From Peristeroidobacter soli (lineage in GTDB: Bacteria; Pseudomonadota; Gammaproteobacteria; Steroidobacterales; Steroidobacteraceae), in NCBI RefSeq assembly GCF_004138485.1, contig NZ_RYEV01000010.1, positions 186,001 through 250,000 of the forward strand: a stretch of 64,000 bases of DNA, written 5' to 3'. The notes beneath the pieces were generated by a model. It saw only the letters and a list, made by a program, of their open reading frames with translations, had not been told where the DNA came from and ran no database searches. The position numbers and the translations under genes were made by a program. Each line of letters opens with the position of its first letter. Within the stretch, counting starts at the first letter, position 1. Of the stretch, positions 12,221 through 46,523 are shown piece by piece.

Positions 12221-14338
<2,118 letters not shown>

Positions 14339-16573: not shown

Positions 16574-16614
16574 GGCAGCCCCCCTGTCGTATCGACCCTG
16601 TTTATTCGACCTCT

Positions 16615-28013: not shown

Positions 28014-28054
28014 CTGCCTGCCTTGTAATGCGATCTGCAATGGGATGTCGGCGG

Positions 28055-29266: not shown

Positions 29267-29321
29267 GCGGTCTCCTCGACCACATGTCGACGCCACAGCT
29301 TTTCGAACAGCGTCTTCGCGG

Positions 29322-30269
29322 TCATGCCGGCGTGCCAGTGCAAACGTTGGCCGGCAACGGATAGCGGCGGGTCCAAGGCCCTGCCTTCAGCACCTGGCCA
29401 GGAATGTCATGCCCGACGAGCGCCGGCAAGCCCGCCGCCACACCGAGCAACCTGATGAGATCGACCCCGGTATTCCATCCCATGCTGTCGAACATGTGCA
29501 CCAGATCTTCCGTGCAAACGTTCCCCGTCGCGCCGGGAGCAAACGGACATCCGCCCAGGCCGCCGAGCGACGCATCGAAGTAATTCACGCCCACGCGCAA
29601 GGCAGCGGCTGCATTCGCCAGTCCCATGCCGCGGGTGTTGTGAAAGTGCGCCGTGACCTGCAACTCCGGCCACTGCCGCAGGACGGCGCCGAAGATATCT
29701 TCGACTTGCGCCGGATTCGCCATCCCCGTGGTATCGCACAGACTCACCCGTGCGATCCCCATGTCGACGAAGCGCGCCACCAGCTCGAGGACTCGCCGCT
29801 TTGGAACGATGCCTTCGAACGGGCAGCCGAAGGCTGTCGACAGTGACGCATTGACCGCGGCGTGCGCCCGTGCGAGGGGGACGATCCTGGCGAACTGTCC
29901 GAGTGAATCATCACAGCCCATCGCCAGATTGGCGCGGTTGTGACTTTCACTCGCGGACATCACCAGATTGATCTCATCGACGTTGCACGACAGTGCGCGC
30001 TCGCAGCCGCGCAGATTCGGCACCAGCGCGGCGTATTCGACGCCCTCGACTCGCTCGATGCCTCGCATCACTGCTTCGGCATCCGCCAGCATCGGGATGG
30101 CTTTGGGTGAGGAGAACGAGGTGACCTCGATCTTGCTCAGACCGCATCGGCTGAGCCGATCGATCAACGCGATCTTCTCCTCGGTGGGCACGAAGCGCTG
30201 CTCGATCTGGAAGCCGTCGCGGACCGCCACCTCCTGGATGAAAACGCGCGACCCAGCTGCATTGCTCAC
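29322..30269 (-). CDS. Hydroxymethylglutaryl-CoA lyase-like protein (MvaB type)
   Basis: A 315-residue DRE-TIM lyase. Metal-binding RDGFQIEQ, CDTTGMANP, the HFHN metal-ligand motif in AHFHNTRGMGLANAAAA and the catalytic cysteine loop GLGGCPFAPGATGN are all present. The family cleaves 3-hydroxy-3-methylglutaryl-CoA or similar 3-hydroxyacyl-CoA compounds to acetyl-CoA and a keto product. In this operon it may cleave a pathway-specific hydroxyacyl-CoA rather than serve leucine breakdown; none of the other leucine genes (methylcrotonyl-CoA carboxylase subunits) is present. It overlaps the CaiB gene by 4 bp. Confidence 0.85.
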   Translation of the reverse strand: MSNAAGSRVFIQEVAVRDGFQIEQRFVPTEEKIALIDRLSRCGLSKIEVTSFSSPKAIPMLADAEAVMRGIERVEGVEYAALVPNLRGCERALSCNVDEINLVMSASESHNRANLAMGCDDSLGQFARIVPLARAHAAVNASLSTAFGCPFEGIVPKRRVLELVARFVDMGIARVSLCDTTGMANPAQVEDIFGAVLRQWPELQVTAHFHNTRGMGLANAAAALRVGVNYFDASLGGLGGCPFAPGATGNVCTEDLVHMFDSMGWNTGVDLIRLLGVAAGLPALVGHDIPGQVLKAGPWTRRYPLPANVCTGTPA

Positions 30270-31444
30270 TTCGACTTCTCCTCCAAATCAGTCAGCACCT
30301 CGGCGGTATGCTCGCCGAGCGTGGGCCCCAGCCAGCGGGTTCGACCGGGCGTTGCACTGAGCTTGGGAACGATGCCGGGAAGCATCACACGCTGCCCATC
30401 CGCCAATACGTGCTCCTCGAGCATGCCGCGTGCCTGATAGTGCTCGTCAGCCGCGATGTCGGCCGCTGAATAGATCTTTCCTACCGGGACCTCGGCACGT
30501 TCCAGAATCCGCACCACCTCGTCGATGTCGTATCGCGCCGTCCACGCGCCGATGGCCGCGTCCAGCTCGTCATTGCGCCTGACGCGTCCATCGTTGTGGG
30601 CGAGCGCCGCATCGGTCGCGAGATCGTCACGACCGATGGCTTGCATGAGACGTCGAAACAATGCATCGCCGTTGCCAGCGATCACGACATGCTGTCCGTC
30701 GCGGCACTCATAGGTATTGGAGGGTGAAATGCCCGGCAGACTCGCACCGGATCGCTGCCGTACGAAGCCCTGCGCCGAGAACTCGGGCAGCAGACTTTCC
30801 ATCACGCCGAACACCGCTTCATACAGCGCGACATCGACGACCTGTCCCTTGCCGCCATTGTTCTTGCGATGGTGAAGCGCCATCAGCGCACCGAGCGCCC
30901 CGTACATGGAGGCCAGCGTGTCACCGATGCTCACGCCCGAGCGCACCGGCGGCCGATCCGGAAATCCCGTGACGAACCGCAGCCCACCCATGGCCTCGGC
31001 AATCGCGGCGAAGCCCGGCAAATCCCGGCGCGGGCCGGTCTGACCATAGCCCGAGATACGAACCATGATCAGCCCCGGATTGTCGGCCGACAGCGTGTCC
31101 CAGCCGAGCCCCCATTTCTCCAGCGTACCGGGCCGGAAGTTCTCCACCAGGATGTCCGCCTCGGCGGCCAGCCGGCGCACGATGCCCCGGCCCTGGTCGC
31201 TCTTCAGATCGAGCACCACCGACTTCTTGTTCCGACTCTGCACGTACCACCACAGCGACGTGCCCTGATGCAACTTGCGCCATTTGCGCAGCGGATCGCC
31301 CTGCCCCGGCGGCTCGACCTTGATCACGTCTGCACCGAACTGCGCGAACAGTGCGGCGGCGTAAGGACCGGCGATCAGCGATCCCAGCTCGAGAACTTTG
31401 ACTCCCTGCAATGGCAGTGGCGTGGCTGAGTCAGTGGGGGTCAT
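30266..31444 (-). CDS. CaiB/BaiF family (class III) CoA-transferase
   Basis: A 392-residue protein with the family landmarks VLELGSLIAGPYAAALFAQF, VKVEPPGQGDPLRKW, LVENFRPGTLEKWG and SGYGQTGP; the likely catalytic Asp is in VSIGDTLASMYG. It transfers CoA from a donor thioester to an acid, an ATP-free way to activate a pathway substrate. It lies 12 bp after the SnoaL gene and is coupled to the lyase gene. Substrate unknown. Confidence 0.88.
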   Translation of the reverse strand: MTPTDSATPLPLQGVKVLELGSLIAGPYAAALFAQFGADVIKVEPPGQGDPLRKWRKLHQGTSLWWYVQSRNKKSVVLDLKSDQGRGIVRRLAAEADILVENFRPGTLEKWGLGWDTLSADNPGLIMVRISGYGQTGPRRDLPGFAAIAEAMGGLRFVTGFPDRPPVRSGVSIGDTLASMYGALGALMALHHRKNNGGKGQVVDVALYEAVFGVMESLLPEFSAQGFVRQRSGASLPGISPSNTYECRDGQHVVIAGNGDALFRRLMQAIGRDDLATDAALAHNDGRVRRNDELDAAIGAWTARYDIDEVVRILERAEVPVGKIYSAADIAADEHYQARGMLEEHVLADGQRVMLPGIVPKLSATPGRTRWLGPTLGEHTAEVLTDLEEKSK

Positions 31445-31456
31445 GCGGCACTTCTC

Positions 31457-31834
31457 CTAGCGCCGCAACAGCGGCGCGATATGAGCACTATCCATGTATT
31501 CGTGCAGCCTGAAAACCTTGCCGTCGCGCACCTGCCCCACCATGCAGGTCGGCGCCTCGATGGTCTGATCCGCCACGGTTCCACGCAGCACATGCCGCTG
31601 CACGAACCCCCCCTCGAAACACGTGCGCTCGACGGCGTCGTACTCGAACCCGGTGACGGTGCGATTCAACCACCGCAACATCTTCAGGTTCTCGTCCCGT
31701 CCTTGAACGCGCCCGGAATAGTTGTGCCAGATCTGGACTTCCGGGTGGTAGCAGGCGGCGACCGCGTCCGTATCGCCGGCGGCGATAGCGGAGAACAGTC
31801 GTTCAGCCAGCGCATCGACTTCGTGGGGACTCAT
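31457..31834 (-). CDS. SnoaL/NTF2-like protein
   Basis: A 125-residue single-domain NTF2-fold protein (EVDALAERLFSAIAAGDTDA, ACYHPEVQIWHNYSGRVQG). Proteins of this size in catabolic operons are isomerases, dehydratases or ligand-binding helpers; no catalytic residue pattern can be assigned here. It is packed 3 bp after the oxidoreductase stop and 12 bp before the CaiB start. Confidence 0.75.
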   Translation of the reverse strand: MSPHEVDALAERLFSAIAAGDTDAVAACYHPEVQIWHNYSGRVQGRDENLKMLRWLNRTVTGFEYDAVERTCFEGGFVQRHVLRGTVADQTIEAPTCMVGQVRDGKVFRLHEYMDSAHIAPLLRR

Positions 31835-31837
31835 GAT

Positions 31838-32848
31838 TCAACGCTCGCTGAGGACGACGACTGACTTGCCGATCGTGGCTCGACGGGCCGTGGCGATCAG
31901 TGCTTGCGGTGCGGACTCGAAATCGAACTCGCGCCCGACTCTCGGCTTGAGCGCACCGCTCGCAAGCAATGTCGCCAGATGTTCACGACATCGCTCGGCC
32001 GTCGCCCGATCGTTAGTGCGAAACCAATCGACCTGCATGCCCATGACCGAGCAGTTCTTCAACAGCAGCCGGTTCACCGCCAGCGACGGAATCTCACCGC
32101 TGCTGAAACCGAGCACGACGACGCGGCCTCGATTGGCGATGACACGTACGGAATCGCCGAACACCTGACCACCCACCGAGTCGAGCACGATGTCCACGCC
32201 GCGTCCGTCGGTCGCCTGCTTGATCGCATCCACGAAGCTGTCGTGGAGATAGTCGATCGCGAGATCGGCGCCGAGCTCCCGACACACGCGCACTTTCTCC
32301 GGGCCGCCGGCCGTGACAAATGTTTTGAGTCCAGCGGCACGTGCCAGCTGGATCGCAGCCGCACCCAGTGCACCGGCACCGGCGTGAATCAGTACGCTTT
32401 CACCGGCCTGGGCCTGGGCCCGATCGAACAACGCGAACCAAGCGGTCTCGTAACTGATGGTGAGCGCTGCAGCCTCCGCATCCGTCATGCCCGCAGGCAC
32501 GCGATGAATCTGCGATGCCGGCACCAGACAGAACTCCGCGAGCCCGCCGCTCGGCAGCGCCGTCGGTCCGGCAATCCTCGTATCGATGAATGACTCGAAG
32601 CCCGCTGCCGCATCGATGACCTGACCGCAGACCTCCAACCCCGGTGTGAACGGCAGCGACGCGCGCCATTGATAGCCACCCCGGCACAACAGCACATCGG
32701 CGAAGTTGATACCGCAGGCACGGACCCTCACGAGCAACTGGCCCGCCGTGACAACCGGTGTCGGCGCGGCGATCAATTGCATCGCTTGCGGCAGCTCTCC
32801 CACGGCATGGACCGACCAACTGCGCATCTGCCCCGCCAGATCGATCAT
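31838..32848 (-). CDS. NAD(P)H:quinone oxidoreductase-like protein (MDR superfamily)
   Basis: A 336-residue zinc-free medium-chain reductase. It has GINFADVLLCRGGYQ, FTPGLEVCGQVID, the nucleotide-binding AGAGALGAAAIQLARAAG and VLDSVGGQVFGDS. Members reduce quinones or the double bond of enoyl-CoA and enones with NADPH. It overlaps the Rieske oxygenase gene by 4 bp. A role as enoyl reductase acting on a ring-derived intermediate is possible; a role as electron donor to the oxygenase is unlikely because it lacks flavin and iron-sulfur motifs. Confidence 0.85.
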   Translation of the reverse strand: MIDLAGQMRSWSVHAVGELPQAMQLIAAPTPVVTAGQLLVRVRACGINFADVLLCRGGYQWRASLPFTPGLEVCGQVIDAAAGFESFIDTRIAGPTALPSGGLAEFCLVPASQIHRVPAGMTDAEAAALTISYETAWFALFDRAQAQAGESVLIHAGAGALGAAAIQLARAAGLKTFVTAGGPEKVRVCRELGADLAIDYLHDSFVDAIKQATDGRGVDIVLDSVGGQVFGDSVRVIANRGRVVVLGFSSGEIPSLAVNRLLLKNCSVMGMQVDWFRTNDRATAERCREHLATLLASGALKPRVGREFDFESAPQALIATARRATIGKSVVVLSER

Positions 32849-34005
32849 TCGGCCCGCGGCAGATCCGCGTCGCGATGCTGTTTCAGGCAGCGGTGGAAAT
32901 GCTGTAACGGATATTCGTTGCGTCCGATCAGGAACGTCTCATTCGCACCGGAACGCAGCGTGGCCTGAATGCGGTCGGCCGCGAGATAGTCCTCATCGCG
33001 AATGACGGCCTGAATATAGTCCGCATACTTGCGCATGCGCTCGCGCTGCCTGTCATCGTTGTCGACCGGCTTGCGGCTCAGAACGGTCATCAGCGTAAGC
33101 GACGTGTCCATGGTGTCGCCCGGCAGCACTTGCGAGATCAGCATCTGATCCTGGTAACCGCCAGCGATCGATACGTTCGGATAGATGATGTGCACGGGGA
33201 ACACCGCGTCGGCGACCGCAGGTAACGCCTCAGGATCGGAGAGTCCGCGCAGGCCTTCGCGCGCAAAGATCAGCCGCTGATGCAAGCCGAACTGATCGCC
33301 GAGCATCGTGCCCTTGGTGTCCTTGCCCACCGACGGTCGATGCAATACGTTGAAGTGGTAGCCTTCCATGTACCCGTCGAAGGCCACCTTCCAGTTCGGC
33401 CCTGGCAGCGAGCGCCGCTCGGCCACGTGCCAGTCGGCGATCTGCAGCGATTCGAGCACCGGCGCATAAGTGCCCAGCCACGCATCGATGTCCAGCGGCA
33501 CGCCGGGCGTGAGAACGCCCCAGATGATTCCGGCGCGTTCGACGCAGCTGAGCTGAGTCAGGCCGCGCTCGCGCTTGTCCAGGTCGCCAAATTGCTTCTC
33601 CAGGTAGACGCCGACCAGCGCACCTTGCGAGTCGTAGGTCCAGGCGTGATAGGGACAGGCAAACCTCATCGCATGCCCGCAACCGTCGGTGAGCAACTGT
33701 GTGCCTCGATGCCGGCATGCGTTCAGAAATGCGCGTGCCACGCCATCCTTGCCTCGGACCAGCAGCAACGGAATTTTGCGAATCGTGAGCGCGCGATAGT
33801 CGCCCGGTGCCTTGAGCTCGGCGCTGTAGCCCAGCACCAGCGGACGACGCATGAAGATGGCGTCCATCTCCCGACGCCAGATCGCCTCATCGAGGTAATC
33901 CGACACCGGCAATTCCATGGTTGCCTCGGATTGGTCGGTGGTGCGCTCGCTCAGGTGGCGCATCGAACGCTCGACCAGCGTGTTCAGGGTCGCGGTAGTG
34001 CTCAT
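32845..34005 (-). CDS. Rieske non-haem iron oxygenase, alpha subunit
   Basis: A 386-residue ring-hydroxylating oxygenase. The Rieske cluster motif is CRHRGTQLLTDGC...CPYHAW (Cys-X-His and Cys-X2-His), and the mononuclear iron site lies in FDGYMEGYHFNVLH. The ATG at 34005 (MSTTATLNTLVERSM) is preferred; the longer open frame runs into the upstream gene. No beta subunit, ferredoxin or reductase gene is in the window, so electrons must come from partners elsewhere. It would hydroxylate or O/N-dealkylate an aromatic substrate of the operon. Confidence 0.88.
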   Translation of the reverse strand: MSTTATLNTLVERSMRHLSERTTDQSEATMELPVSDYLDEAIWRREMDAIFMRRPLVLGYSAELKAPGDYRALTIRKIPLLLVRGKDGVARAFLNACRHRGTQLLTDGCGHAMRFACPYHAWTYDSQGALVGVYLEKQFGDLDKRERGLTQLSCVERAGIIWGVLTPGVPLDIDAWLGTYAPVLESLQIADWHVAERRSLPGPNWKVAFDGYMEGYHFNVLHRPSVGKDTKGTMLGDQFGLHQRLIFAREGLRGLSDPEALPAVADAVFPVHIIYPNVSIAGGYQDQMLISQVLPGDTMDTSLTLMTVLSRKPVDNDDRQRERMRKYADYIQAVIRDEDYLAADRIQATLRSGANETFLIGRNEYPLQHFHRCLKQHRDADLPRAE

Positions 34006-34048
34006 CGGGCGGGTCTCGAATGTCTGCTCACTGTTCGGGTCGAATCCA

Positions 34049-35194
34049 TCAATGGCCGTGCAACGTTCCATAGCGATCGCGATGAAAGCGCACATCGCCC
34101 AGCAACACGTCGGCGACCGCGGCACGTTTCAGAAACAGGCCGATATCGAACTCATCGGTCATGCCGTTGCCGCCGTACATCTGTATCGCCTCGAGGGCAA
34201 CCTGCCGAAAAGTGTCGCCCGCCTTGGCCTTGGCGGCGCTGGCGAGCGGAGCGATGCGATCGATCTGGCGCCGGTCGTCCAGCGCGGCGAGCGCGTTCAT
34301 CACGCAAGAGCGCGACAACTCCACGTCGCAGTACAGCCTGGCGGCCCGATGTTTCAGCGCCTGAAACGAGCCGATAGGCACACCGAACTGATGCCGCTCG
34401 CGCAGATAGGTCATCGTCCGGTCGAAACATTCCTGCAGGCTGCCGAGCATCTCGGCGGCAAGGCCGATGCGGCCCGCGTCGAGTATCCGATCGAGCAGAT
34501 CGGCGCCTGCATCGATGTCGCCGAGCACGTCGTCGGCACTCACCAGAACGTTCTCGAAGAAAACCTCCGCGGCGTTACGTGAATCGATCAGATGCATGCG
34601 CCGTACTGACACTCCGCGCGCGGCTCGATCGACCAGAAACAACGTCAATCCCCGCCGCTCCCCGCCGGCGCCCGCCGTCCTCGCCACGACGATGAGCTTG
34701 TCCGCGACATGCCCATCCATGACGAACGTCTTGCAGCCATTGAGCCGATAGGCATCGCCGTCTCGACGTGCCGTCATGCTCGAGCCATAGGGCTGATGGT
34801 GATGAGACTCCTCCAACGCCAACGCCATGAGGAGCTCGCCGCTGGCGAGCCTGGGCAGCAATTCGCGACGCCGCGCGTCGTTGGTATCGAGATGACATGC
34901 GGTGCCGCCGATCCACACCGTCGCGTGCAGTGGGCTCGCCATCAGCGTCCGCCCCGTCTCCTCGGTGATCACCCCAAGACTGCGATACCCGAAATCCAGC
35001 CCGCCCAGCTCAGTCGACCAGGGAATCGCCGCCCAGCCCAGCTGCACCATCTCCCGCCAGGTGTCGCGATCGAAACCGTCGGGACTCGCCGAGTCGCGCA
35101 GCTGACGCAGCTGTCGCACCGGTGCGCGCTCGGTGCAGAACACCCGCGCGCTTTCGGCCGCCATCAACTGCTCTTCGCTCAACAGCATCGACAT
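34049..35194 (-). CDS. Acyl-CoA dehydrogenase, shorter paralogue (381 residues)
   Basis: A FAD-dependent acyl-CoA dehydrogenase: MALALEESHHHQPYGSS replaces the usual flavin-contact segment, and the C-terminal AIQMYGGNGMTDEFDIGLFL is recognisable. It is more diverged than the 403-residue paralogue of the same operon and could be the partner subunit of a heteromeric enzyme, or work on a different intermediate. It starts MSMLLSEEQLM at 35194; the second Met is also possible. Confidence 0.85.
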   Translation of the reverse strand: MSMLLSEEQLMAAESARVFCTERAPVRQLRQLRDSASPDGFDRDTWREMVQLGWAAIPWSTELGGLDFGYRSLGVITEETGRTLMASPLHATVWIGGTACHLDTNDARRRELLPRLASGELLMALALEESHHHQPYGSSMTARRDGDAYRLNGCKTFVMDGHVADKLIVVARTAGAGGERRGLTLFLVDRAARGVSVRRMHLIDSRNAAEVFFENVLVSADDVLGDIDAGADLLDRILDAGRIGLAAEMLGSLQECFDRTMTYLRERHQFGVPIGSFQALKHRAARLYCDVELSRSCVMNALAALDDRRQIDRIAPLASAAKAKAGDTFRQVALEAIQMYGGNGMTDEFDIGLFLKRAAVADVLLGDVRFHRDRYGTLHGH

Positions 35195-35209
35195 GATCGC
35201 GCTCGATGG

Positions 35210-35746
35210 CTACTTCGTGCGCTGGACGGGCTCGAACATTTCCGCCGGATACTCCGGAATGGTCGCAGGCGTGTCGTCGCCGACCAGGCGGTGCGCCTCG
35301 GCAATGTCACCGGGCGTCAGGTCGAGCGTCGGCAGGGTGAACTCCACCATGTTCTTGTCCGGATCGAGCGTATAGATCGAGGTGATGAACTCGTGCTTCA
35401 CCTGGCTCACGCGCAGGCCATGATTCAGCCAGCGCTGTTTCTTTTCTTCGAGCTGCTCGGGCGTATCGACCTGGAACGCGATGTGATTGATCCAGGTCGG
35501 CAGACCGAGCCCCGAGGACCACGACGACTGCCATTCGACGCCTTCCAGCTCGGTCAGGTGCAGATCCCACAACGCAAACAGACTGCCGCGGCCGGTGTCG
35601 TAGAACACATGCTTGGTCCAGCCGGCGGCCGCTCCGCCCATGGCCTGCCGCTTGACCACTTTCACCAGCGGAAAGCCCATCACCTCGGTGTAGAAGTGAT
35701 GCGAGACTTTGAAGTTCTTGGGCGCGATGGCGATGTGATGAATCAT
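35210..35746 (-). CDS. VOC (glyoxalase/extradiol dioxygenase) superfamily protein
   Basis: A 178-residue protein with two half-modules: IHHIAIAPKNFKVSHHFYTE and, later, WINHIAFQVDTPEQLEEKKQ, ending with DPDKNMVEFTLPTLD. His and Glu at the ends of these strands are the usual metal ligands. It could be a lyase, epimerase or dioxygenase of the pathway. The ATG at 35746 overlaps the alpha/beta-hydrolase stop, showing translational coupling, and excludes the much longer open frame that precedes it. Confidence 0.8.
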   Translation of the reverse strand: MIHHIAIAPKNFKVSHHFYTEVMGFPLVKVVKRQAMGGAAAGWTKHVFYDTGRGSLFALWDLHLTELEGVEWQSSWSSGLGLPTWINHIAFQVDTPEQLEEKKQRWLNHGLRVSQVKHEFITSIYTLDPDKNMVEFTLPTLDLTPGDIAEAHRLVGDDTPATIPEYPAEMFEPVQRTK

Positions 35747-36954
35747 GAGCGTGCTCCCGAGCGGTCGACGCCGGAACCGAGGTGATGCTTTGCGAGCCAG
35801 CCGTTGACCAGGGTAACGGTCTGCTCCAGCTTCGCTTTCTGTCCGGGGCCGCTGAAGTAATGATTGGCGCCCGCGATCATGTGACGTTCCTTGCCGTCGT
35901 GGCGGATCGCGGCGTAGATCGCATCGGTGTGTGTCGTCGGGCAGGCATCGTCGGCGCCGTTGACGACGACGAGGATGGGCGTCGTGATGCGTGAGACTGC
36001 GTCGACGGCGTCCACCTGCGCGTGGTCGTAGCTCCATTGAGACAACCAGCTGCGCAGCGAGGAATAGCGCGCGAGCGCGGCGGGACTATTGTTGGCTACG
36101 CGGGGATCGCCGATGTAGCTGCCGGCCTTGCGCTCGTTCGGATCGATGGAAATATCCAGCCAGCGCGGATCGGCCATCGTGCCGTGGACGACGAACGCGC
36201 GTTCGTCCTGCTCGCGCCCCTGTCGGCGCAATGCCTGCAACTGTTCGAGCACCCACGCGGTGATTTTCCGATTGCGCTTGAGCTGTGCGGCTCGGTAGCT
36301 CTCCAGGAAGCCGCGATCATAGGGCGGCTGGTGCGGATTCTGCGCATCGTACAGATCCAGCTGCCGGTCGCGACGCTCTGGATCGCGCTCATCGAGAATG
36401 GACGCGTCGAGAAAATCGGTGAGCAGGTGATGTCGGCTGCGATGAGATGCGAGCAGCATCAAGGCATCGGCCTTGGGCAATTGAGTATCCACCAGCGGCG
36501 TGTACTCATCCGCGGCGGTCCTGACGATCCGGCGCTGCTCCGCCTCGGCCTGATAGCCCGCCATCAAACTGCCGCCACCGCTCCAGCCCGCCAGCACGAT
36601 CTGCTCGTAGCCCAGACGCTCGCGTGCATCGCGAATGCAGGCCGCGAGATCGAGCAGCAGGTTTTCGAACTGGAGCGCGAAATCGCCGTTGGAGTAACGG
36701 TTCGCGCAGCAGATCACGTGATGACCGGCCCGCGCCAGCGCCGGGAACATCGGCAGATAGGCCTGCGAACCGATGGGATGCATGGCGACGATGACGGACT
36801 TGGATTCCGCCGGGCCGCGCAGCAGTTGAGCCTGCAACGCGACGTGCTCACCCACCGAGCCATAGACCTCTTTCGCAGCGCCTCGGGGCACCTGATACAC
36901 GACCAGGTATGGCGTGCGGCTATAGGAAGAAGCTGCGGAATCCTGCGAACTCAT
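35743..36954 (-). CDS. Alpha/beta hydrolase, first gene of a ten-gene operon
   Basis: A 403-residue hydrolase with nucleophile Ser in LAGWSGGGSLMAGY, acid in VNGADDACPTT and His in AGANHYFSGPG. It is larger than average because of an insert of about 120 residues (about 175-290) that would form a lid. No signal peptide. It opens the operon running down to 27213, and 84 bp upstream of its start stands the 19-bp inverted-repeat sequence shared with the ligase gene at 39942. A first hydrolytic step (ester or thioester) of the pathway is likely. Confidence 0.82.
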   Translation of the reverse strand: MSSQDSAASSYSRTPYLVVYQVPRGAAKEVYGSVGEHVALQAQLLRGPAESKSVIVAMHPIGSQAYLPMFPALARAGHHVICCANRYSNGDFALQFENLLLDLAACIRDARERLGYEQIVLAGWSGGGSLMAGYQAEAEQRRIVRTAADEYTPLVDTQLPKADALMLLASHRSRHHLLTDFLDASILDERDPERRDRQLDLYDAQNPHQPPYDRGFLESYRAAQLKRNRKITAWVLEQLQALRRQGREQDERAFVVHGTMADPRWLDISIDPNERKAGSYIGDPRVANNSPAALARYSSLRSWLSQWSYDHAQVDAVDAVSRITTPILVVVNGADDACPTTHTDAIYAAIRHDGKERHMIAGANHYFSGPGQKAKLEQTVTLVNGWLAKHHLGSGVDRSGARS

Positions 36955-37038
36955 CGTGTTCCCACCGACCCTCCGGCGCGCGAGCCAATTCGCGAGCTGC
37001 GGTGTCAGGCAGGAGTTTGCGGGACCGGCCGCGGAATC

Positions 37039-37057
37039 TCGTCGTCAAAAATGACGA
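37039..37057 (-). promoter_or_regulatory. Putative LAL-regulator operator, copy 1 (upstream of ten-gene operon)
   Basis: On the minus strand this reads TCGTCATTTTTGACGACGA. Its core is a perfect inverted repeat, TCGTCA-4-TGACGA. The same 19 bases occur at 39818-39836. It lies directly after the stop of the regulator gene and 84 bp before the alpha/beta-hydrolase start, and points toward that gene in the same sense as copy 2 points toward the ligase. Confidence 0.7.
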
Positions 37058-37058
37058 T

Positions 37059-39773
37059 TCATGAGATCAGGCCGTGCCGGCGGGCCACCGCGATGGCCTG
37101 CGTCCGGCTGTGCACGTCGAGCTTGGTGTTGATATTCCGCATGTGGGTGCGGACCGTGGACTCGGAGATGAACAGGCGCTCGGAGATCGCCCGATTCGAC
37201 AGGCCCTCGTTCGCAAGCCGCAGGGCTTCGATCTCCTTGGGTGTGAGCAATTCGCTCGGCGCCGGGGTCGTCGTCGGCACGACCGGTTGCGCGGGAGCGC
37301 CGCCCAGCAGTCCCTGGGCGAACTCGGCAAGTGCCCGTCCTTCGGGCAAGTCACGACAGCGCTGCAGCCACTCCTCCACCACCGACAACACGGTCGGGCC
37401 TTCGTCAAGAAACGTTCGGCGAAAGCCTTCCGGTGCGGCGAGCGACAATGCCTGGCCGATGTGCAGCTGAGCGAGCTTCTTCTGTCCCGTCGCCTGCGCA
37501 GCCTCCGCGAGCAGAATACGAAGCTTCAGCACGCGCCGGCGCCGCTGCAGGTATTCGGCCTGTTCCAGCGCCTGATCGAGCCGGGCCATTGCACTCTCAG
37601 CCCGTCCACTGCGAATCAGATATCGCAACTCGCCGATCTCCAGCGTATCAGCGTCATTGCCCGCCATGGCGGAGCGCGAGACCCGCGCCCACAGCAGGTC
37701 ATCCTGGGCCGCTTTGAGCTCGGCCGCGGCAACATCGACATTCCTGTCGCTCAAAGCGAACCGGGCGCGCTCGAGCTTGGCGCTTGCCACCGCGCGCGGC
37801 AGCTCCAGACGATGACCCAGATGCTCCAGCTCCTTGGTCAACTGAAAATGCCGTTCCTGGTCGCCGCCGATACCGGCGATGCGTGCCATCAGGACATGTC
37901 CGCTGATGATCTGATCGGCGAGCCCGCCATCTTTGATCAGCGGCGCATAGATGTTGAGCAGCCGCTCCGCCTGCCCCAGCTCGCCGGCCTCGTAGAGCGC
38001 TTCGGCCATCAGGATGCCGGCCATGGCGTTGGCCTTCACGTTGCGTGACTGTGCTCGTGTATCAGGATTGAGTGCGGCTCGCAGGCGTATGGTGGCATCG
38101 CGTAAGCGGCCGCGCATGAGCGCCATCGCCCCTTCGATCGATTCGGTGACTGCAACGCTGAACATGGCGACCGCCGCGGTCTGCGTGCGACGCGCCTCCT
38201 CGATGTAAGCCTGCGATTCATCGAAACTGCCGCGAATCATCGAGACCGTCGCGAGCGCAATCAGCAGCATGTGTCGGGAAAAGGCCGCATGCTGAGGCAA
38301 CAGCGGCAGATTCTGCTTGCCACGCTCATATGCGTCGTCGGGACGATCCATCAGAGACAGCAACAGAGGACGCAGGCCAAGCAGATACTCCGCGAACTCC
38401 GCACTGCTCGGGTTGCTTTTCTCGACATCGTCCAGCAGCGTCAGCGCTTCGCGGGGCGAGCGCACGAAGCTCAACACCCATGCATGAATCAGCCGCAGTT
38501 GCGGATAGGCGACGAGCGCGGCCGGCGGAATGCTGCCGAACCATCGCGCGAGCATCCGCATTCGCGCGTCCGCCAGCAGTTGAGCCGCATGTTTCGCGAG
38601 CAGCGGCACTGCGCGTTCCAGATCTCCGGATTGCAGCGCATGTTCGATGGCTCGCACCGGACGCTGCTGCCGCTCGTACCAATACGATGCGGCCAGATGG
38701 ATGGCACGGGCGCGCGACGGCTGCTCACGCTCCAACTGCCCCCGCAGAAACTCGGCAAACAGGCTGTGATAACGATAGATATCGCGTTCGCGATCGACCG
38801 GAATCAGGAACAGATTGGCACGCTCCAGCCGCTCGATCATCGTCCGGCTGTCGTCGCGTCCGCACACCTCGTTGCACAACGCGGGAGTGAATTCGCTCAG
38901 GACGCTGGTCTCCAGCAAAAAACCGCGCAGCTCCTCGGGTTGCCGGCCCAGCACGTCCTCCGCGAGAAAATCCGAGATGGCCGCATCCGACCCCGAGAAG
39001 TCCTCGATCAGTCGAGGATCGCCAGTGCCGCGCTCGAGTGCCAGCGAGGCCAGCGACAAGCCCGCCGGCCAGCCTTCGGTGCGCTGATGCAGACGCGCCA
39101 GTTGCTCGTCGCTCAACGGCAAGTGTTTCTGACGACGCAGCAGCTCGCTGGCTTCATCGATGGAGAAGCGCAGTTGACCGGGCTCGATATCGAGCAGCTT
39201 GCCCTGGGCCCGCAACCGTCCCAGTCCGAGCGCGGGAATGCTTCGCGAGCCGATCACGATCTGCGCGCCGGGCGGCAAATGATCGATCACCTGTCGCACC
39301 AGCCCGAGCGCCGCCGGGTTGACCAGCGATTCGAATTCATCGAGGAATAACAGGAATGGCTGGCGATGCGAGCCGATGTGTTCGATGAGCTCGACCAGCG
39401 CCGAGTCCGCGCTCGATTCGATGCTGCCCACGTCGAGTGCCGGAATCGCCGCAGCCAAAGCAACGGCCAATGCCGCCAGAAAGCGGCCCACGTCGTTGTC
39501 GGCGGCGTCGAGTGTGAGCCAGGCGCACGGCAGGTTACTGCTCACGCAGCGCTGGTAAACCTGTCGCATCACCGTGGTTTTGCCAAACCCCGCCGCTGCA
39601 CGGATCACGACGATCCGCGCCCCGCCGGCCGCGAAGATCTCATCGCACAGCTGTGAGCGGCTGACCTCGTGCGCCCCCGGCAGCGGCGGCCGGCATTTCA
39701 AAGCCAGCACCGGCTGCTGTCGGTCCGCGGTATTCAGCCCGCTGACTGCGGTGAACTGACTCTCGTCTTTCAT
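37059..39773 (-). CDS. MalT/LAL-type ATP-binding LuxR-family transcriptional regulator
   Basis: A 904-residue regulator. An N-terminal STAND-type ATPase holds the Walker A AAAGFGKTT (about residues 60-67) and a Walker B-like QPFLLFLDEFES. A long helical TPR-like sensor region fills the middle, and a C-terminal LuxR HTH (LLTPKEIEALRLANEGLSNR, then ISESTVRTHMRNINTKLDVH) ends the protein. The ATG at 39773 is chosen over one at 39824, because the latter lies inside the putative operator. It sits between the ten-gene operon and the divergent ligase gene, each preceded by the same inverted repeat, and is the likely activator of both, responding to a pathway metabolite and ATP. Confidence 0.88.
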   Translation of the reverse strand: MKDESQFTAVSGLNTADRQQPVLALKCRPPLPGAHEVSRSQLCDEIFAAGGARIVVIRAAAGFGKTTVMRQVYQRCVSSNLPCAWLTLDAADNDVGRFLAALAVALAAAIPALDVGSIESSADSALVELIEHIGSHRQPFLLFLDEFESLVNPAALGLVRQVIDHLPPGAQIVIGSRSIPALGLGRLRAQGKLLDIEPGQLRFSIDEASELLRRQKHLPLSDEQLARLHQRTEGWPAGLSLASLALERGTGDPRLIEDFSGSDAAISDFLAEDVLGRQPEELRGFLLETSVLSEFTPALCNEVCGRDDSRTMIERLERANLFLIPVDRERDIYRYHSLFAEFLRGQLEREQPSRARAIHLAASYWYERQQRPVRAIEHALQSGDLERAVPLLAKHAAQLLADARMRMLARWFGSIPPAALVAYPQLRLIHAWVLSFVRSPREALTLLDDVEKSNPSSAEFAEYLLGLRPLLLSLMDRPDDAYERGKQNLPLLPQHAAFSRHMLLIALATVSMIRGSFDESQAYIEEARRTQTAAVAMFSVAVTESIEGAMALMRGRLRDATIRLRAALNPDTRAQSRNVKANAMAGILMAEALYEAGELGQAERLLNIYAPLIKDGGLADQIISGHVLMARIAGIGGDQERHFQLTKELEHLGHRLELPRAVASAKLERARFALSDRNVDVAAAELKAAQDDLLWARVSRSAMAGNDADTLEIGELRYLIRSGRAESAMARLDQALEQAEYLQRRRRVLKLRILLAEAAQATGQKKLAQLHIGQALSLAAPEGFRRTFLDEGPTVLSVVEEWLQRCRDLPEGRALAEFAQGLLGGAPAQPVVPTTTPAPSELLTPKEIEALRLANEGLSNRAISERLFISESTVRTHMRNINTKLDVHSRTQAIAVARRHGLIS

Positions 39774-39817
39774 TATCGCCAGACCATACCCGTTGGCCCC
39801 GTTCGTGTTCAACACGG

Positions 39818-39836
39818 TCGTCATTTTTGACGACGA
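39818..39836 (+). promoter_or_regulatory. Putative LAL-regulator operator, copy 2 (divergent region)
   Basis: Reads TCGTCATTTTTGACGACGA on the plus strand, identical over 19 bases to the minus-strand copy at 37039-37057, core TCGTCA-TTTT-TGACGA. It sits 44 bp before the regulator start (39773) and 105 bp before the GTG start of the ligase (39942), or 84 bp before an in-frame TTG at 39921, the same distance as copy 1 to its gene. Confidence 0.7.
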
Positions 39837-39941
39837 CGGTCACGAGCGTCAGCCGTATGATGTCACTCAACCGCCGGGTAGTGCATTTGCGCACAGGCTC
39901 GACCTGGCGTTGCGAAGTCATTGCTGTCATCCGAGGGATGC

Positions 39942-41780
39942 GTGGATAACGCCCAGCTACATCGAGAATCGCCGCCCGCATCGAATCCTCTCGCCGAGCG
40001 GCTGCCCTCGCCCGCCGTCGATTGCCGGATCCTCCGCGATGGCTCGTTCCTGCTCCGATCGCGGCTGCCGCTGATCAAGCCGCGAGCCTCAGTGATCGCG
40101 ATGCTCGAAGAAGCGGCACAACGCCATCCCGACCGCGCTTTTCTGCGTGCCAAGACCAGCGCGCACGAGTGGGCCGAGCTCACCTTCGGTGACGCCGAGC
40201 GGTGCTCACGAAGCATGGCGCAGTGGCTGTTCGATCAAGGCTTGCGACCGCGAGATACCGTGGCCGTGCTCTGTGGAGCCGGCATCGATCACGCCCTCTT
40301 TGCGCTGGGAGCGATGCGCATTCACGTCGGTGTGGCTGCGTTGAATCCCATCTATCTGCGCGCTTCCGACTCGCGCCGGCTCGGGCATTGTCTTGCCATC
40401 GTGCGGCCCTCCTTGCTGCTGGTCGATGACGAACCCGCAGCCCGAGCGGCGCTGAACGCGCTGGGATTGAACATTCCGCTGCTCTCGATTCGAACCGCGC
40501 AGTCGCGGGGACAAGCGCCGTTCGATGAAGCGCTGCAGACGATCCCGAAACAAGATATCGCAACGCTCGAGCGATCCATCCCGCCGGACTGCGCCGCGCG
40601 CATCGTGTTTACGTCAGGCTCCACGGGGTTGCCCAAAGCCGTGCCGCAGACCCATCGGATGCTGACCGCATCGATGGCACAGACCGAATCGATGGGATTG
40701 TTCGACTTCTCATCGGAGCATCCCCGGCTGCTCGATGGCCTGCCGTGGCATCACATCTTCGGCGGCAACCACAACTTCAACGCCGCCCTGCGCACGGCGG
40801 GAACCATCACGCTCGACGATGGCCGCCCGACGCCCGAGCTGTTCGGCCGCACGCTCGAGAACCTCAAGAGCGTCCGGCCTTCCTACATCGCCACCGTCCC
40901 ACTCACCCTCACTCTGCTGTGCGACGCGCTGGAAACAGATGCCGAGCTGCGCAATCTCCTGTTGCCCGACCTCGAATACCTGCTGTTCGGTGGCGCGGGC
41001 CTGCAGAGCAGCGTCGTCTCACGATTGCACAACGTCACGCGCAGCGCTGTCGGCCGCCCGCTGCCTGTGCTCGCGACTTACGGCGCCACCGAGATGCAAC
41101 TCGTCGGTGCCGTGCATTGGGTGACCACTCGCACCGATCTGCTCGGCGTGCCCGTGCCCGGCACGGAGATCAAGCTCACGCCCGTCGGCAACAAACTGGA
41201 GATCCGGGTACGCGGGCCCAGCGTGATGCCGCGCTCGGGTTATCTCGACAACCCGGACGCCACCGAAAAAGTCTTCGACGAAGACGGGTTCTACCGGACC
41301 GGCGACACCGCCGTGCTCGCCGAGCCCGATCGGCCCGAAGCGGGGCTGATCTTCGACGGTCGCCTCGCCGAGGAATTCAAGCTTGCCTCCGGCACCTGGG
41401 TGTCCGCCGGCACCGTGCGCGAGAATGTTTTGACCGCCTGCTCTCCTCTGCTCCTCGAAGCGGTAGTCTGCGGACTCAACCAGGACGAGCTGGGTCTGCT
41501 GGCATGGCTCAATTTCAATGCAGCGGACGCCACCGGTGAGAGCGTGCGCGAGGCGCTGCGTCAGCGCATCCAGCTGCACAACGCTCGCTGGAAAGGCTCC
41601 TCCATGCGCATCGGTCGAATGCTTCTGGCCACCAGGCCGCTGGCGACCGCCGATGGTGAGATCACTGATAAAGGCAGCGTGAATATTTCCAAGGTGTGGC
41701 AATCGCGCGGTGACGACATCGAAAAGATGTTTGCCAGCGTTCCCGGTGAGGACGTAATGATCTTCGCCCCCGGCGAATGA
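39942..41780 (+). CDS. Feruloyl-CoA synthetase-like AMP-forming ligase, second paralogue
   Basis: A 612-residue adenylate-forming ligase. The P-loop is VFTSGSTGLPKAVPQTHRM with the glycine intact, unlike the paralogue at 19126. GLPWHHIFGGNHNFNAAL and TYGATEMQLVGAVHW are subgroup motifs; the C-terminal EITDKGSVNISKVW holds the likely adenylation lysine. The GTG at 39942 has GAGGG seven bases upstream; TTG at 39921 is in frame. It is divergent from the LAL regulator and preceded by the operator copy. It probably activates the substrate of the second catabolic block. Confidence 0.82.
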   Translation: MDNAQLHRESPPASNPLAERLPSPAVDCRILRDGSFLLRSRLPLIKPRASVIAMLEEAAQRHPDRAFLRAKTSAHEWAELTFGDAERCSRSMAQWLFDQGLRPRDTVAVLCGAGIDHALFALGAMRIHVGVAALNPIYLRASDSRRLGHCLAIVRPSLLLVDDEPAARAALNALGLNIPLLSIRTAQSRGQAPFDEALQTIPKQDIATLERSIPPDCAARIVFTSGSTGLPKAVPQTHRMLTASMAQTESMGLFDFSSEHPRLLDGLPWHHIFGGNHNFNAALRTAGTITLDDGRPTPELFGRTLENLKSVRPSYIATVPLTLTLLCDALETDAELRNLLLPDLEYLLFGGAGLQSSVVSRLHNVTRSAVGRPLPVLATYGATEMQLVGAVHWVTTRTDLLGVPVPGTEIKLTPVGNKLEIRVRGPSVMPRSGYLDNPDATEKVFDEDGFYRTGDTAVLAEPDRPEAGLIFDGRLAEEFKLASGTWVSAGTVRENVLTACSPLLLEAVVCGLNQDELGLLAWLNFNAADATGESVREALRQRIQLHNARWKGSSMRIGRMLLATRPLATADGEITDKGSVNISKVWQSRGDDIEKMFASVPGEDVMIFAPGE

Positions 41781-41786
41781 CCCGGC

Positions 41787-41808
41787 GAGTCGCGCTTCAG
41801 TGCGACTC
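41787..41808. terminator. Hairpin between convergent ligase and MFS genes
   Basis: GAGTCGC (41787-41793) and GCGACTC (41802-41808) pair perfectly; two further inner pairs leave a TTCA loop. It covers the end of the MFS gene and follows the ligase stop by 6 bp, so it can serve both converging transcripts. No T-run. Confidence 0.5.
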
Positions 41809-43140: not shown

Positions 43141-45456
43141 TCAATAGCGATAAGAGAAGTTGATGCCGTACGTGCGAGGCATGCCGGCATAGCGGATCAC
43201 GCTGTCCGTGCGGCGGTTCGCAGTGAACCAGTAATACTCGTCCGTGATGTTTCTGCCATAGAGCGTGGCACGCCACTTCTCATCGGCGCTGGCCACCCCG
43301 AGTCGCACGTCGACCAGCGTGTAGGCATCGATGTCGAGGCGCGGATCCGGCAGGAAGTCGCCGTTCGTCCCGCTGCGATAGTTGGCGCCGACACCCACGA
43401 AACCATCGAGAGCGCTGTTGAGACCGAACGAGTACTCACCATCGGCGCTGATCTGCCACTTCGAGGCGTAGGGAAAGGCTTGTCCCTTCAAGTCCGTCCG
43501 CACCGAGCCGCCGAAGACCGTGTAGTTGCCGCCCGGCGAGCCTTCGGTGACTTCGGTATCGAGATAAGTCACGCCCGAGGTCAACCGCAGGCCCGCCACC
43601 GGTGCCCAGTCGAGCTGCAACTCCGCGCCCTGCACTTTCGATTTCGGAATGTTGACCAGCGCCTCCAGCGGCCCGAACACAGGCACGATGGTGCGGCCTT
43701 TCAACTGCTTGTCGGTGTAGTCGTTATAGAAAATCGCGCCGTTCACCTGCAGCGTGCGCGCGAACAGCGTCGACTTCACGCCAATCTCGTACGCAGTGAT
43801 CTTCTCCTGATCCACCGGCGCATATTGAGGCGCATTCGTGCCCGGCAGCGTCGGATAGCCGCCGGCCTTGAAGCCTCGGCTGACGTTCGCGTATAGCAAC
43901 GTGTCGGCCGTGACGTTCCAGTCCAGACCCGTGCGCCAGGAGACATTGCTCTCCGACTTGCTGTCCACCACCATCTGCGGCACCGGCGGCGTATCGGTGC
44001 TGAAGGTCACGCACTCTCCCAACGGAATGACTCCGGTATAGCCGAGCGAAGTAGAGAAACCGCGCGCGAAGGTCTGATTGCCCGCGTTGAGCGAGCAACC
44101 CTCGAAATCGATGTCGGTATCGGTATAGCGGGCGCCGAGCTGCAGATTCAGGTTCGGCACGAGCTCATAGCTTGCGTTGGCGAACACCGCCGCGCTTTCA
44201 AACGTTGTTCGGCCGACCTGCGGCACCACCTCGGTCGGTGGCAGGCCCAGACGCGAGAACGCATGCCCGGAGCTGGACTCCGACAGACGTTGATCGTCCT
44301 GCTCGAACGCCTTGTCGCGGCTGTAGTTGACGCCGACGACCCAATTTCCCTTGTCTATCGTGCCCGCCACACGCAGCTCCTGCGTGAAGCTCTCCACCTG
44401 CCCGACGATATACAGATCGGCGATGGTCAACGCCGTGCCATCGCCATCCTGGCCGAACTCCTGATCGAAATCCGAGTACGACGTGAGCGACGTGAGCGTC
44501 ACGAGGTCAGTGATCTCGTAGTCCGCGCGCAGGGTCGACTGCCACAGCTTGTTGTCGCGATCGAGATCGTACTCGCTGTGATACCCCCAGTCGGCCTGGC
44601 GAGCATCGCTCGACGCGCGTGGATACGTCGGCAGCCGCGGATCGAGGAATGCCCCTGGCGTCTGCTGGAACGTCTGCACGAACTGCGGCGCCTGGGTCTG
44701 CGACTTGTCGATGAAACCATTGATGTTCAACGATAGCGTCAGTGCATCGAGCGGACGCCAGTCGAGAATCATGCGCGCCTGGGTGAAATCCTTGGCACCG
44801 AGCGTATCGCCGGGCCGGGTCGAGCTCTTCTGCCAGCCGTCGCTCTGCGAGTGCTTGACCGCGACCCGCGCGCGCAGCGTGTCGGTCAGCGGGCCGCTGA
44901 TGAAGCCGCCCACATCGTAGCTGCCGAAGTTCCCGGCGCCCGCGTCGAAGCCGGCGTTGAACGTGTCGGTCGGTTTGGCGGCGATGTAATTGATGGCGCC
45001 GCCGGTCGCGTTCTGTCCGAACAGCGTACCCTGCGGTCCTTTCAACACCTCGACCCGCTCCAGATCGAACACCGCACCCAACGTGAGCGCCGGAAATGCC
45101 AGCGGAACCTCGTCCACATAGACGCCGACGGTGGGCTTGGACGCAAGACTGGTGTCGAAGAAGCCGATGCCGCGGATGAAATAGATGGGCGTGCCGTAAC
45201 TGCTGTCGGCGTAGGCGAAACCGGGGACGGTCTTCGCAAGCTGCGACATGTCGGAGACCCCCATCGCCTGCAACTGGTCGCCGGAGATCGCGGTGATCGA
45301 CATCGGCACCGAGTTGATCGATTCGGTGCGCTTTTGCGCAGTCACGATGACTTCCTCGAGTCCCGTGCCGGCATCCTGCGCCACCGATTGATGAGCCATG
45401 GCCTGCAACACTGCCAATACGGCCACGTGAGAAGTTCTGATCCCCCGAATCATCAT
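43141..45456 (-). CDS. TonB-dependent outer-membrane receptor, second paralogue
   Basis: A 771-residue receptor. A signal peptide (about residues 1-27, ending QSVAQ) precedes GLEEVIVTAQKRTESINSVP; the plug contains LKGPQGTLFGQNATGGAINY and the barrel ends in GINFSYRY with an aromatic last residue. The start at 45456 (or the next ATG at 45453) follows GGAGG. It leads a receptor-MFS pair and diverges from the SDR gene. Substrate is unknown, but the position beside an aryl-CoA ligase suggests an aromatic or terpenoid-like acid. Confidence 0.88.
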   Translation of the reverse strand: MMIRGIRTSHVAVLAVLQAMAHQSVAQDAGTGLEEVIVTAQKRTESINSVPMSITAISGDQLQAMGVSDMSQLAKTVPGFAYADSSYGTPIYFIRGIGFFDTSLASKPTVGVYVDEVPLAFPALTLGAVFDLERVEVLKGPQGTLFGQNATGGAINYIAAKPTDTFNAGFDAGAGNFGSYDVGGFISGPLTDTLRARVAVKHSQSDGWQKSSTRPGDTLGAKDFTQARMILDWRPLDALTLSLNINGFIDKSQTQAPQFVQTFQQTPGAFLDPRLPTYPRASSDARQADWGYHSEYDLDRDNKLWQSTLRADYEITDLVTLTSLTSYSDFDQEFGQDGDGTALTIADLYIVGQVESFTQELRVAGTIDKGNWVVGVNYSRDKAFEQDDQRLSESSSGHAFSRLGLPPTEVVPQVGRTTFESAAVFANASYELVPNLNLQLGARYTDTDIDFEGCSLNAGNQTFARGFSTSLGYTGVIPLGECVTFSTDTPPVPQMVVDSKSESNVSWRTGLDWNVTADTLLYANVSRGFKAGGYPTLPGTNAPQYAPVDQEKITAYEIGVKSTLFARTLQVNGAIFYNDYTDKQLKGRTIVPVFGPLEALVNIPKSKVQGAELQLDWAPVAGLRLTSGVTYLDTEVTEGSPGGNYTVFGGSVRTDLKGQAFPYASKWQISADGEYSFGLNSALDGFVGVGANYRSGTNGDFLPDPRLDIDAYTLVDVRLGVASADEKWRATLYGRNITDEYYWFTANRRTDSVIRYAGMPRTYGINFSYRY

Positions 45457-45659
45457 GCCTCCGCAGGAGCTGTCATTTATAAGTCGTAAGGCATGGCGTG
45501 CATCCACCCAGCCGTGAGGTCGGAGTATGTCCGCGGGCGGTTGACGAGGCATCGGCAAAACTGACGAGTTTGTCAACGGCGGGGGCTCGTCGGATCTGCC
45601 GATGGTCCCTGCACCACTGGTGCGTAGGCTGCGCGGACCACCGGCTCCTCTCTCGACCC
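45457..45659. promoter_or_regulatory. Divergent region between TonB receptor and SDR genes
   Basis: A 203-bp spacer. It contains GTTGAC (45540-45545) and GTCAAC (45572-45577) as an inverted pair, and two TGACGA half-sites at 45542-45547 and 45562-45567, 20 bp apart, that match one arm of the putative LAL operator. This may place both flanking genes in the same regulon, but the full inverted repeat is absent. Confidence 0.35.
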
Positions 45660-46523
45660 ATGACTCAAGAATTGCGATTCGACGGACACGTGGTTGCTGT
45701 CGCTGGCGGCAGTGCGGGACTCGGGCGTCAATACTGCCTGGATCTTGCGCGCAGTGGTGCGCGAGTGATTGTGGGCGGTCGCGGGCCGAGCACCGAACAG
45801 GTCGTCACCGAGCTTCGCGCGCTCGGCGGCGAGGCGGTCGAGTGCATCGCCGATGTTCGCGATGGCGAGCGATTGATCTCCCGTGCCCTCGAGGCATACG
45901 GCCGCATCGACGGCCTGATCGTCAACGCCGGCATCGTTCGCGACCGCTCGTTCGCCAGGATGTCGGCCGATGAATGGCGCGAAGTCCTCTCCATCCATGT
46001 CGACGGCGCCTTCGCGTGCGTCAAAGCTGCGTGGCCCGTCATGATCGCGCAGGGCGGCGGACGTATCGTATTGACCACCTCCGGCGCCGGCCTGCATGGC
46101 AACTTCGGCCAGGCCAATTACGCCGCGGCCAAGGCCGCACTGATCGGATTCATGCGCACCCTGGCCATCGAAGGTGCGACCAGGAACATTTACTGCAACG
46201 CTGTAGCCCCGATGGCGCTGACCGCAATGACCGAGAGCGTGTTCGACGAGGAAATGAAATCGACATTGGCCGCGCCGCTGGTCTCACCCTTCGTGCTGGC
46301 AATGGTGCACCCCGCCTGTCGTGAGAACGGCTCGATCATCGAGACCGGCGGCGGCTGGGCCTCACGTCTGCGCTGGCAACGGTCACGCGGAATTCGTTTC
46401 GAAGAAACTGACTTTGGCGCCGGCGATGTGCTGGCGCGCTGGAACCAGATCACCACATTCGATGACGTGGACTATCCCGACTCGACGAAGGACAGTCTCG
46501 ACGCCGCGCTCGGCAGGCAATGA
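45660..46523 (+). CDS. Short-chain dehydrogenase, HSD17B4/3-hydroxyacyl-CoA dehydrogenase-like
   Basis: A 287-residue SDR. The nucleotide-binding motif is VVAVAGGSAGLGR (Ala replaces the usual Thr), followed by VNAGI and the catalytic TTSGAGLHGNFGQANYAAAK with Ser, Tyr and Lys in place. The resemblance is to the SDR domain of peroxisomal multifunctional enzyme, which oxidises (3R)-hydroxyacyl-CoA; the C-terminal 50 residues are an extension. The ATG at 45660 is chosen because upstream in-frame sequence is not SDR-like. It could supply the dehydrogenase step missing from the ten-gene operon. Confidence 0.82.
   Translation: MTQELRFDGHVVAVAGGSAGLGRQYCLDLARSGARVIVGGRGPSTEQVVTELRALGGEAVECIADVRDGERLISRALEAYGRIDGLIVNAGIVRDRSFARMSADEWREVLSIHVDGAFACVKAAWPVMIAQGGGRIVLTTSGAGLHGNFGQANYAAAKAALIGFMRTLAIEGATRNIYCNAVAPMALTAMTESVFDEEMKSTLAAPLVSPFVLAMVHPACRENGSIIETGGGWASRLRWQRSRGIRFEETDFGAGDVLARWNQITTFDDVDYPDSTKDSLDAALGRQ

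Follow-up and report, generated by a model that had tools for sequence, protein, structure and literature searches.

A candidate inverted-repeat operator for a MalT-like LAL regulator in a catabolic locus of Peristeroidobacter soli and its association with one regulator clade

LAL regulators are large and numerous and, to our knowledge, few of their operators are known. In a stretch of 64,000 nucleotides from the genome of Peristeroidobacter soli (here called the window), the gene of such a regulator is enclosed by two identical copies of a 19-bp sequence, TCGTCATTTTTGACGACGA, containing an inverted repeat. The question raised by this arrangement is whether the repeat belongs to the regulator encoded between its copies and, if so, which genes are controlled from it and in which sense. 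As judged by comparison of sequences, this MalT-like protein very probably docks on the DNA at the 19-mer.

The repeat and the genes around it

Both copies are exact and lie, in opposite orientation, at the coordinates given by the original prediction (Table 1). Each stands in front of a gene, and the distances first reported are also right: 84 bp from the 19-mer to the hydrolase ATG at 36954 and, on the other side, 84 bp to a TTG at 39921 or 105 bp to a GTG at 39942. For the ligase gene the GTG is the likelier start, since it is preceded by a GAGG Shine-Dalgarno-like stretch that is also present in a relative whose regulator is 84% identical. With up to three mismatches allowed, the window contains only the two exact copies (shuffle mean 0.01, 100 shuffles), and the genome (9,374,132 bp, 17 contigs) contains nine matches, the two exact copies and seven with three mismatches; no further copy with two mismatches or fewer was found in the scan of the 9.37-Mb genome beyond the two window sites. 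In agreement with the original prediction, this two-site distribution is not due to chance, and the genome-wide search for stray copies leaves the reading of the repeat as an operator unrefuted. The pattern TCGTCA-N4-TGACGA occurs exactly at three places in the genome, the two window copies and C1:686166; the latter was set aside, being intergenic but preceding an apparently unrelated ORF, histidine-kinase-like from reading its translation.

The ten collinear genes comprise, in the first half, those for an alpha/beta hydrolase, a glyoxalase-fold protein, an acyl-CoA dehydrogenase, a Rieske oxygenase and a quinone oxidoreductase-like protein and, in the second half, those for a SnoaL-like protein, a class III CoA-transferase, an HMG-CoA-lyase-like protein, an acyl-CoA dehydrogenase and an enoyl-CoA hydratase; their Pfam matches are in keeping with the breakdown of an acid activated by CoA. 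The ligase gene, whose family search was run on the translation from TTG 39921, is divergent from both the LAL gene and the ten-gene unit. A second AMP-binding ligase of the same kind is encoded at 19126-20901 (-), in a neighbouring cluster with a TonB receptor (14354-17065) and a FadJ-like protein (12221-14338); the window scan for an operator core followed by a -10-like hexamer, described below, gave no match around this ligase.

The regulator has a C-terminal GerE domain (PF00196, residues 842-897, E 4e-18) and a TPR_MalT region (PF17874, residues 468-801, 91 bits for a cut-off of 45), with AAA_16, AAA_22 and nSTAND_NTPase5 matching at E about 1e-5, all below their gathering cut-offs. The nearest solved structure by sequence is that of MalT (8BOB; LAL residues 27-426, E 4e-44), and the nearest NCBIfam model is the MalT equivalog, to which the protein scores 339 bits, short of the cut-off of 537 bits.

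Table 1. Features of the locus; positions are those of the window
Feature	Position	Strand	Remarks
Operator 1 (predicted), TCGTCATTTTTGACGA, hydrolase operon	37042..37057	-	19-mer spans 37039-37057; kept in L053 at 3175
-10-like hexamer CAAACT	37014..37019	-	22 bp past operator 1; identical hexamer and spacing in L053
Ten collinear genes	27213..36954	-	ORF calls and Pfam; candidate operon
LAL regulator, 904 aa	37059..39773	-	MalT-like N-terminal and TPR regions, C-terminal LuxR/GerE helix-turn-helix with TVRTH
Operator 2 (predicted), TCGTCATTTTTGACGA, ligase gene	39818..39833	+	19-mer spans 39818-39836; kept in L053 at 410
-10-like hexamer TATGAT	39856..39861	+	22 bp past operator 2; TAAGAT at equal spacing in L053
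Feruloyl-CoA-synthase-like acyl-CoA synthetase	39942..41780	+	Nearest NCBIfam model PRK12582, below cut-off
Probable operator 3, TCGTCAGTTTTGCCGA, TonB-receptor/MFS unit	45552..45567	-	One mismatch; -10-like CATACT at 45524-45529
TonB-dependent receptor	43141..45456	-	MFS transporter 41797-43137 next on same strand
Probable operator 4, TCGTCGGATCTGCCGA, short-chain dehydrogenase gene	45587..45602	+	One mismatch; -10-like TAGGCT at 45625-45630
Short-chain dehydrogenase/reductase	45660..46523	+	Pfam on ORF 45498-46523; start read as ATG 45660

Operator core, promoter position and further promoters

Conservation of the repeat in relatives with the same gene order, named at the outset as a way to check it, is found in one such relative, a Steroidobacter MAG contig (L053; the rows L010 and L024 come from this same contig). 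This 11.5-kb contig, which ends inside the ninth gene, keeps the order of nine of the ten genes, and its LAL is 84% identical. It has the two sites where they stand here; the arms are unchanged, the spacers are altered to TTTC and ATTC from the TTTT seen here, and each palindrome is again followed by the extra CGA. In three more genomes of the genus, with LALs 44-45% identical, TCGTC-N6-GACGA is present exactly on both flanks of the LAL gene, beside other genes; in this region L055 and L056, two of the three loci, share about 91% identity. Since these relatives keep only the shorter arms, the true core is taken to be 5-6-5, and the 6-4-6 repeat of the original prediction, exact at this locus, is too strict as a consensus: across relatives the conserved arms have five bases and the spacer six. 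By itself the 5-6-5 core is found at 76 places in the genome (the reversed pattern at 28), which is too often for it to yield a list of regulon members genome-wide, and it was therefore used with context only.

The distance to the promoter was examined in 32 exact sites of 12 loci, at offsets 6-79 and in both directions; L053, nearly a copy of the window locus, and L056, nearly one of L055, were left out. The -10 weights were approximate values, and each site was given the better of its two orientations, alike at every offset. A single offset stands out, with -10-like hexamers 22 bp after the core (mean score 0.46, z 7.9); the next is 23 (mean -2.8), and offsets other than 21-23 have a mean of -5.3 (s.d. 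0.73, highest -3.6). At +22/23, 21 of the 32 sites score above 1.5 and 11 do not reach that score; 300 flank shuffles gave 1.7 such high-scoring sites on average and never more than 5. CAAACT and CATACT are among several weak -10 hexamers. With the hexamer set at -12 to -7, an offset of 22 bp puts the centre of the palindrome near -42.5, on the place of the -35 element; as given by the predicted -10 only, this is the class II activator position, defined by a centre near -41.5 or -42.5 and overlap with the -35.

A site over the -35 would suit a repressor too, and the LAL could bind there and block RNA polymerase until an inducer comes; a Streptomyces LAL, SCO6993, is reported to repress (PMC9628970). 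Repression is nevertheless unlikely here. None of the window's four promoters has, 15-19 bp ahead of the -10, a hexamer agreeing with TTGACA at more than three of six bases, and they consequently look unable to work unaided; a fixed phasing of 22 bp is what an activator needs. AlkS, moreover, is an activator (PMC8784404).

The four promoters just mentioned include two that are additional to those first described. Model R1, built from 16 sites of other genomes and none from this genome, was run unfiltered on the window and gave 64 hits up to E 10, with the four at ranks 1, 2, 4 and 6: the hydrolase promoter came first (17.6 bits, E 3e-4), followed by 45586-45631 (+) before the short-chain dehydrogenase gene (12.2 bits, E 0.017), 45568-45524 (-) before the TonB-receptor/MFS unit (rank 4, 9.5 bits, E 0.13) and the ligase promoter with its exact site (rank 6, 9.1 bits, E 0.18), ranks 3 and 5 being partial matches elsewhere in the window. 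At operators 3 and 4 the single mismatch is GCCGA in one arm. The receptor site is a conserved island shared with L054, from a different genome of the genus, where it precedes a receptor gene with 80.7% identity over 295 residues that adjoins a 53% identical LAL. Similarly, a window scan for the core with at most one mismatch and YANNNT at 22/23 gave seven matches, or six distinct palindromes, for a mean of 0.10 in 29 arm permutations, and four of the six are the four promoters; the other two, one-mismatch matches at 28185, inside the acyl-CoA dehydrogenase ORF 28055-29296, and at 57829, were taken as chance. Genome-wide, R1 gave 31 hits up to E 10, with the hydrolase promoter (C9:223014) at rank 2 as the only window promoter among them; the ligase promoter is absent from these 31. 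The local regulon thus probably has four promoters. The small regulon and both target units originally proposed are supported by these sequence matches, and its extent has grown from two promoters to probably four.

One copy had also been said to serve the ligase gene together with the regulator gene. The ligase part is supported; the control of the LAL gene is less certain, because its own sigma-70 promoter-like sequence, TTGAAC-N18-TATGGT (39773-39817, -), just downstream of operator 2 and kept in L053 as TTGAAG, is spaced differently from the site. Autoregulation is possible. The -10 of this promoter-like sequence lies about 10 nt before the ATG, which predicts an almost leaderless mRNA, and L053 is arranged alike.

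Association of the core with one clade of regulators

Beyond the genus, exact cores are present in the clusters of further LALs, 34-49% identical, which belong to other families of the class (G305, G744, G874, G925), to the large replicons of Cupriavidus metallidurans CH34 and C. necator N-1 and to a Paracoccaceae plasmid. Where the recognition helix reads TVRTH, an exact core is found in all 14 LAL loci (11.5-20.7 kb examined in each), within 1.4 kb of the gene in 11 of them and outside the 1.4-kb flanks in L054, L069 and L071; the density in the genome itself (76 in 9.37 Mb) would give 0.16 cores per 20 kb. Among 39 other LALs, none has an exact core within 1.4 kb, a count that includes L019 and L040, which end before the helix-turn-helix, and some flanks shorter than 1.4 kb; four of the nearest, L073, L074, L075 and L078, have no exact core over about 20 kb each. 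The nearest outsiders (L011, L012, L073, L074, L078) are 37-40% identical and have TVKAH or TVKSH helices, whereas L079, at 35% overall identity, is a TVRTH member with sites. L022, matched in the helix-turn-helix only, has no row in this comparison. In a tree of 51 LALs, from which L056 and L040 (under 700 residues) were left out, the site-bearing proteins form one clade of 13 rows with 100/99 support. The sequence of the operator, its position, its conservation and its link to a LAL clade are what the computation shows.

The relatives contain 35 exact cores in 13 loci, 22 of them intergenic and 13 inside ORFs called by a simple script with uncertain starts; several of the latter lie at doubtful 5' ends, and one, L079 3506, is intergenic by the record's own annotation. 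Core-plus-minus-10 matches were also counted in 20 genomes. In the nine with a TVRTH LAL, 37 of the 66 matches (as 29 distinct palindromes) are no more than 25 kb from the LAL gene, where 0.58 would be expected, the R1 training sites from these genomes being included in the count. Away from the LAL the rate is 0.46 per Mb, compared with 0.44 per Mb in 11 genomes in which no TVRTH LAL was seen, an absence that for G616, G802 and G318 rests on the two best candidates each.

Two arrangements met during this count may be mentioned. In G616, whose LAL is 39% identical, two identical cores TCGTCCGCTCGGACGA with -10-like hexamers lie about 600 bp apart at C1:3283187 and C1:3283803, at a distance of about 300 kb from the LAL gene, and another such regulator may be encoded near these cores. 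In G305, five distinct cores occur within about 25 kb (C1:1633588-1659079), two of them with a -10-like hexamer to either side, which would suit an operator common to divergent promoters.

The genes adjoining the sites in relatives include those for acyl-CoA ligases, acyl-CoA dehydrogenase, enoyl-CoA hydratase, hydratase/3-hydroxyacyl-CoA dehydrogenase fusions, thiolases, nitronate-monooxygenase-like proteins, class III CoA-transferase and uptake systems (TonB receptors, a TRAP solute receptor). Their common theme, going by the predicted functions, is acid catabolism through CoA thioesters.

These distributions bear on whether the palindrome could be bound by another regulator, global or local, with the LAL merely its neighbour. 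We infer binding by the LAL, and catabolic clusters with LAL genes can also carry the sites of other regulators; this explanation is quite improbable all the same, given that the sites go with a single LAL clade and its recognition-helix letters although the genes next to them vary, and that they cluster around the LAL gene and fall to the background rate elsewhere. An RNA hairpin, terminator or attenuator, for which the six-base arms could form the stem and the four bases between them the loop, is very improbable: the site lies upstream of the -10, outside the transcript it would control, and distant relatives have the same arm letters and no pairing by other letters, with the reservation that the sites were collected by exact match and the invariance of the arms is built in by construction. 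That identical copies in opposite orientation around one gene are the ends of a mobile element or products of recombination is barely conceivable, since the genome has only two copies at up to two mismatches, relatives have different spacers and extra sites not flanking the LAL, and the gene order is kept in L053.

Proposed mechanism and comparison with known systems

The best explanation, with a probability of roughly 0.87, is that the repeat is the operator of the LAL regulator encoded between its copies, acting as a class II activator of four units. The inverted repeat TCGTC-N6-GACGA would be occupied by dimers of the C-terminal helix-turn-helix; it stands 22 bp ahead of the -10 and covers the -35 place, from which the bound LAL would recruit RNA polymerase. 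In the presence of an inducer, probably the substrate or an acyl-CoA intermediate derived from it, the N-terminal and TPR parts may let the protein oligomerise and so activate the ten-gene operon, the CoA ligase gene, the TonB-receptor/MFS uptake unit and the dehydrogenase gene. We infer activation, as opposed to repression, from the position of the site, the poor -35 element and the precedent of MalT and AlkS; the inducer and the membership of the third and fourth units are likewise proposals.

More broadly, it is likely that one operator, TCGTC-N6-GACGA placed 22-23 bp before the -10 and read by a TVRTH helix, serves a whole clade of MalT-like regulators from Alpha-, Beta- and Gammaproteobacteria, hitherto undescribed, which run very different catabolic clusters of the acyl-CoA type. 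If true, a fixed DNA code would be combined with a varying sensor and varying targets, and the regulons, hence the substrates, of uncharacterised clusters could be read from sequence. A searchable consensus tied to a clade and to recognition-helix letters offers predicted regulons in many genomes and joins uptake and degradation genes lying outside one operon, here the TonB receptor and the dehydrogenase with the ten-gene operon; it also provides a ready promoter/regulator pair for finding the inducer. The operator sequence, its link to the clade and its phasing were not found in the literature searched, which is weak evidence of absence, most subscription journals lying outside its scope.

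MalT of Escherichia coli is an activator that binds directly repeated sites, in contrast to the single palindrome per promoter described here. The lux box recognised by LuxR shares the geometry, being a single inverted repeat at about -42.5 used for class II activation; however, no acyl-homoserine-lactone-binding domain is among the Pfam matches of the present LAL, and the arms differ from those of the lux box. Footprinted binding sites have been described for two LuxR-type regulators of Streptomyces. SCO6993 is reported to repress from degenerate palindromes (PMC9628970), unlike the near-invariant palindrome and the proposed activation of the present system, and the three direct repeats bound by MilO lie 142 bp ahead of the start site, as opposed to a palindrome near -42.5. 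The nearest known parallel, by analogy, is AlkS of Pseudomonas putida GPo1, a LAL activator of alkane degradation whose operator is a 20-bp inverted repeat placed before a catabolic promoter and a promoter of alkS itself (PMC8784404). Both are LuxR/MalT-type regulators of a catabolic cluster with an inverted-repeat operator; the pathways differ, and the operators are likened by description, not by sequence. The combination of LAL activator, inverted-repeat operator and catabolic cluster is of a kind already known.
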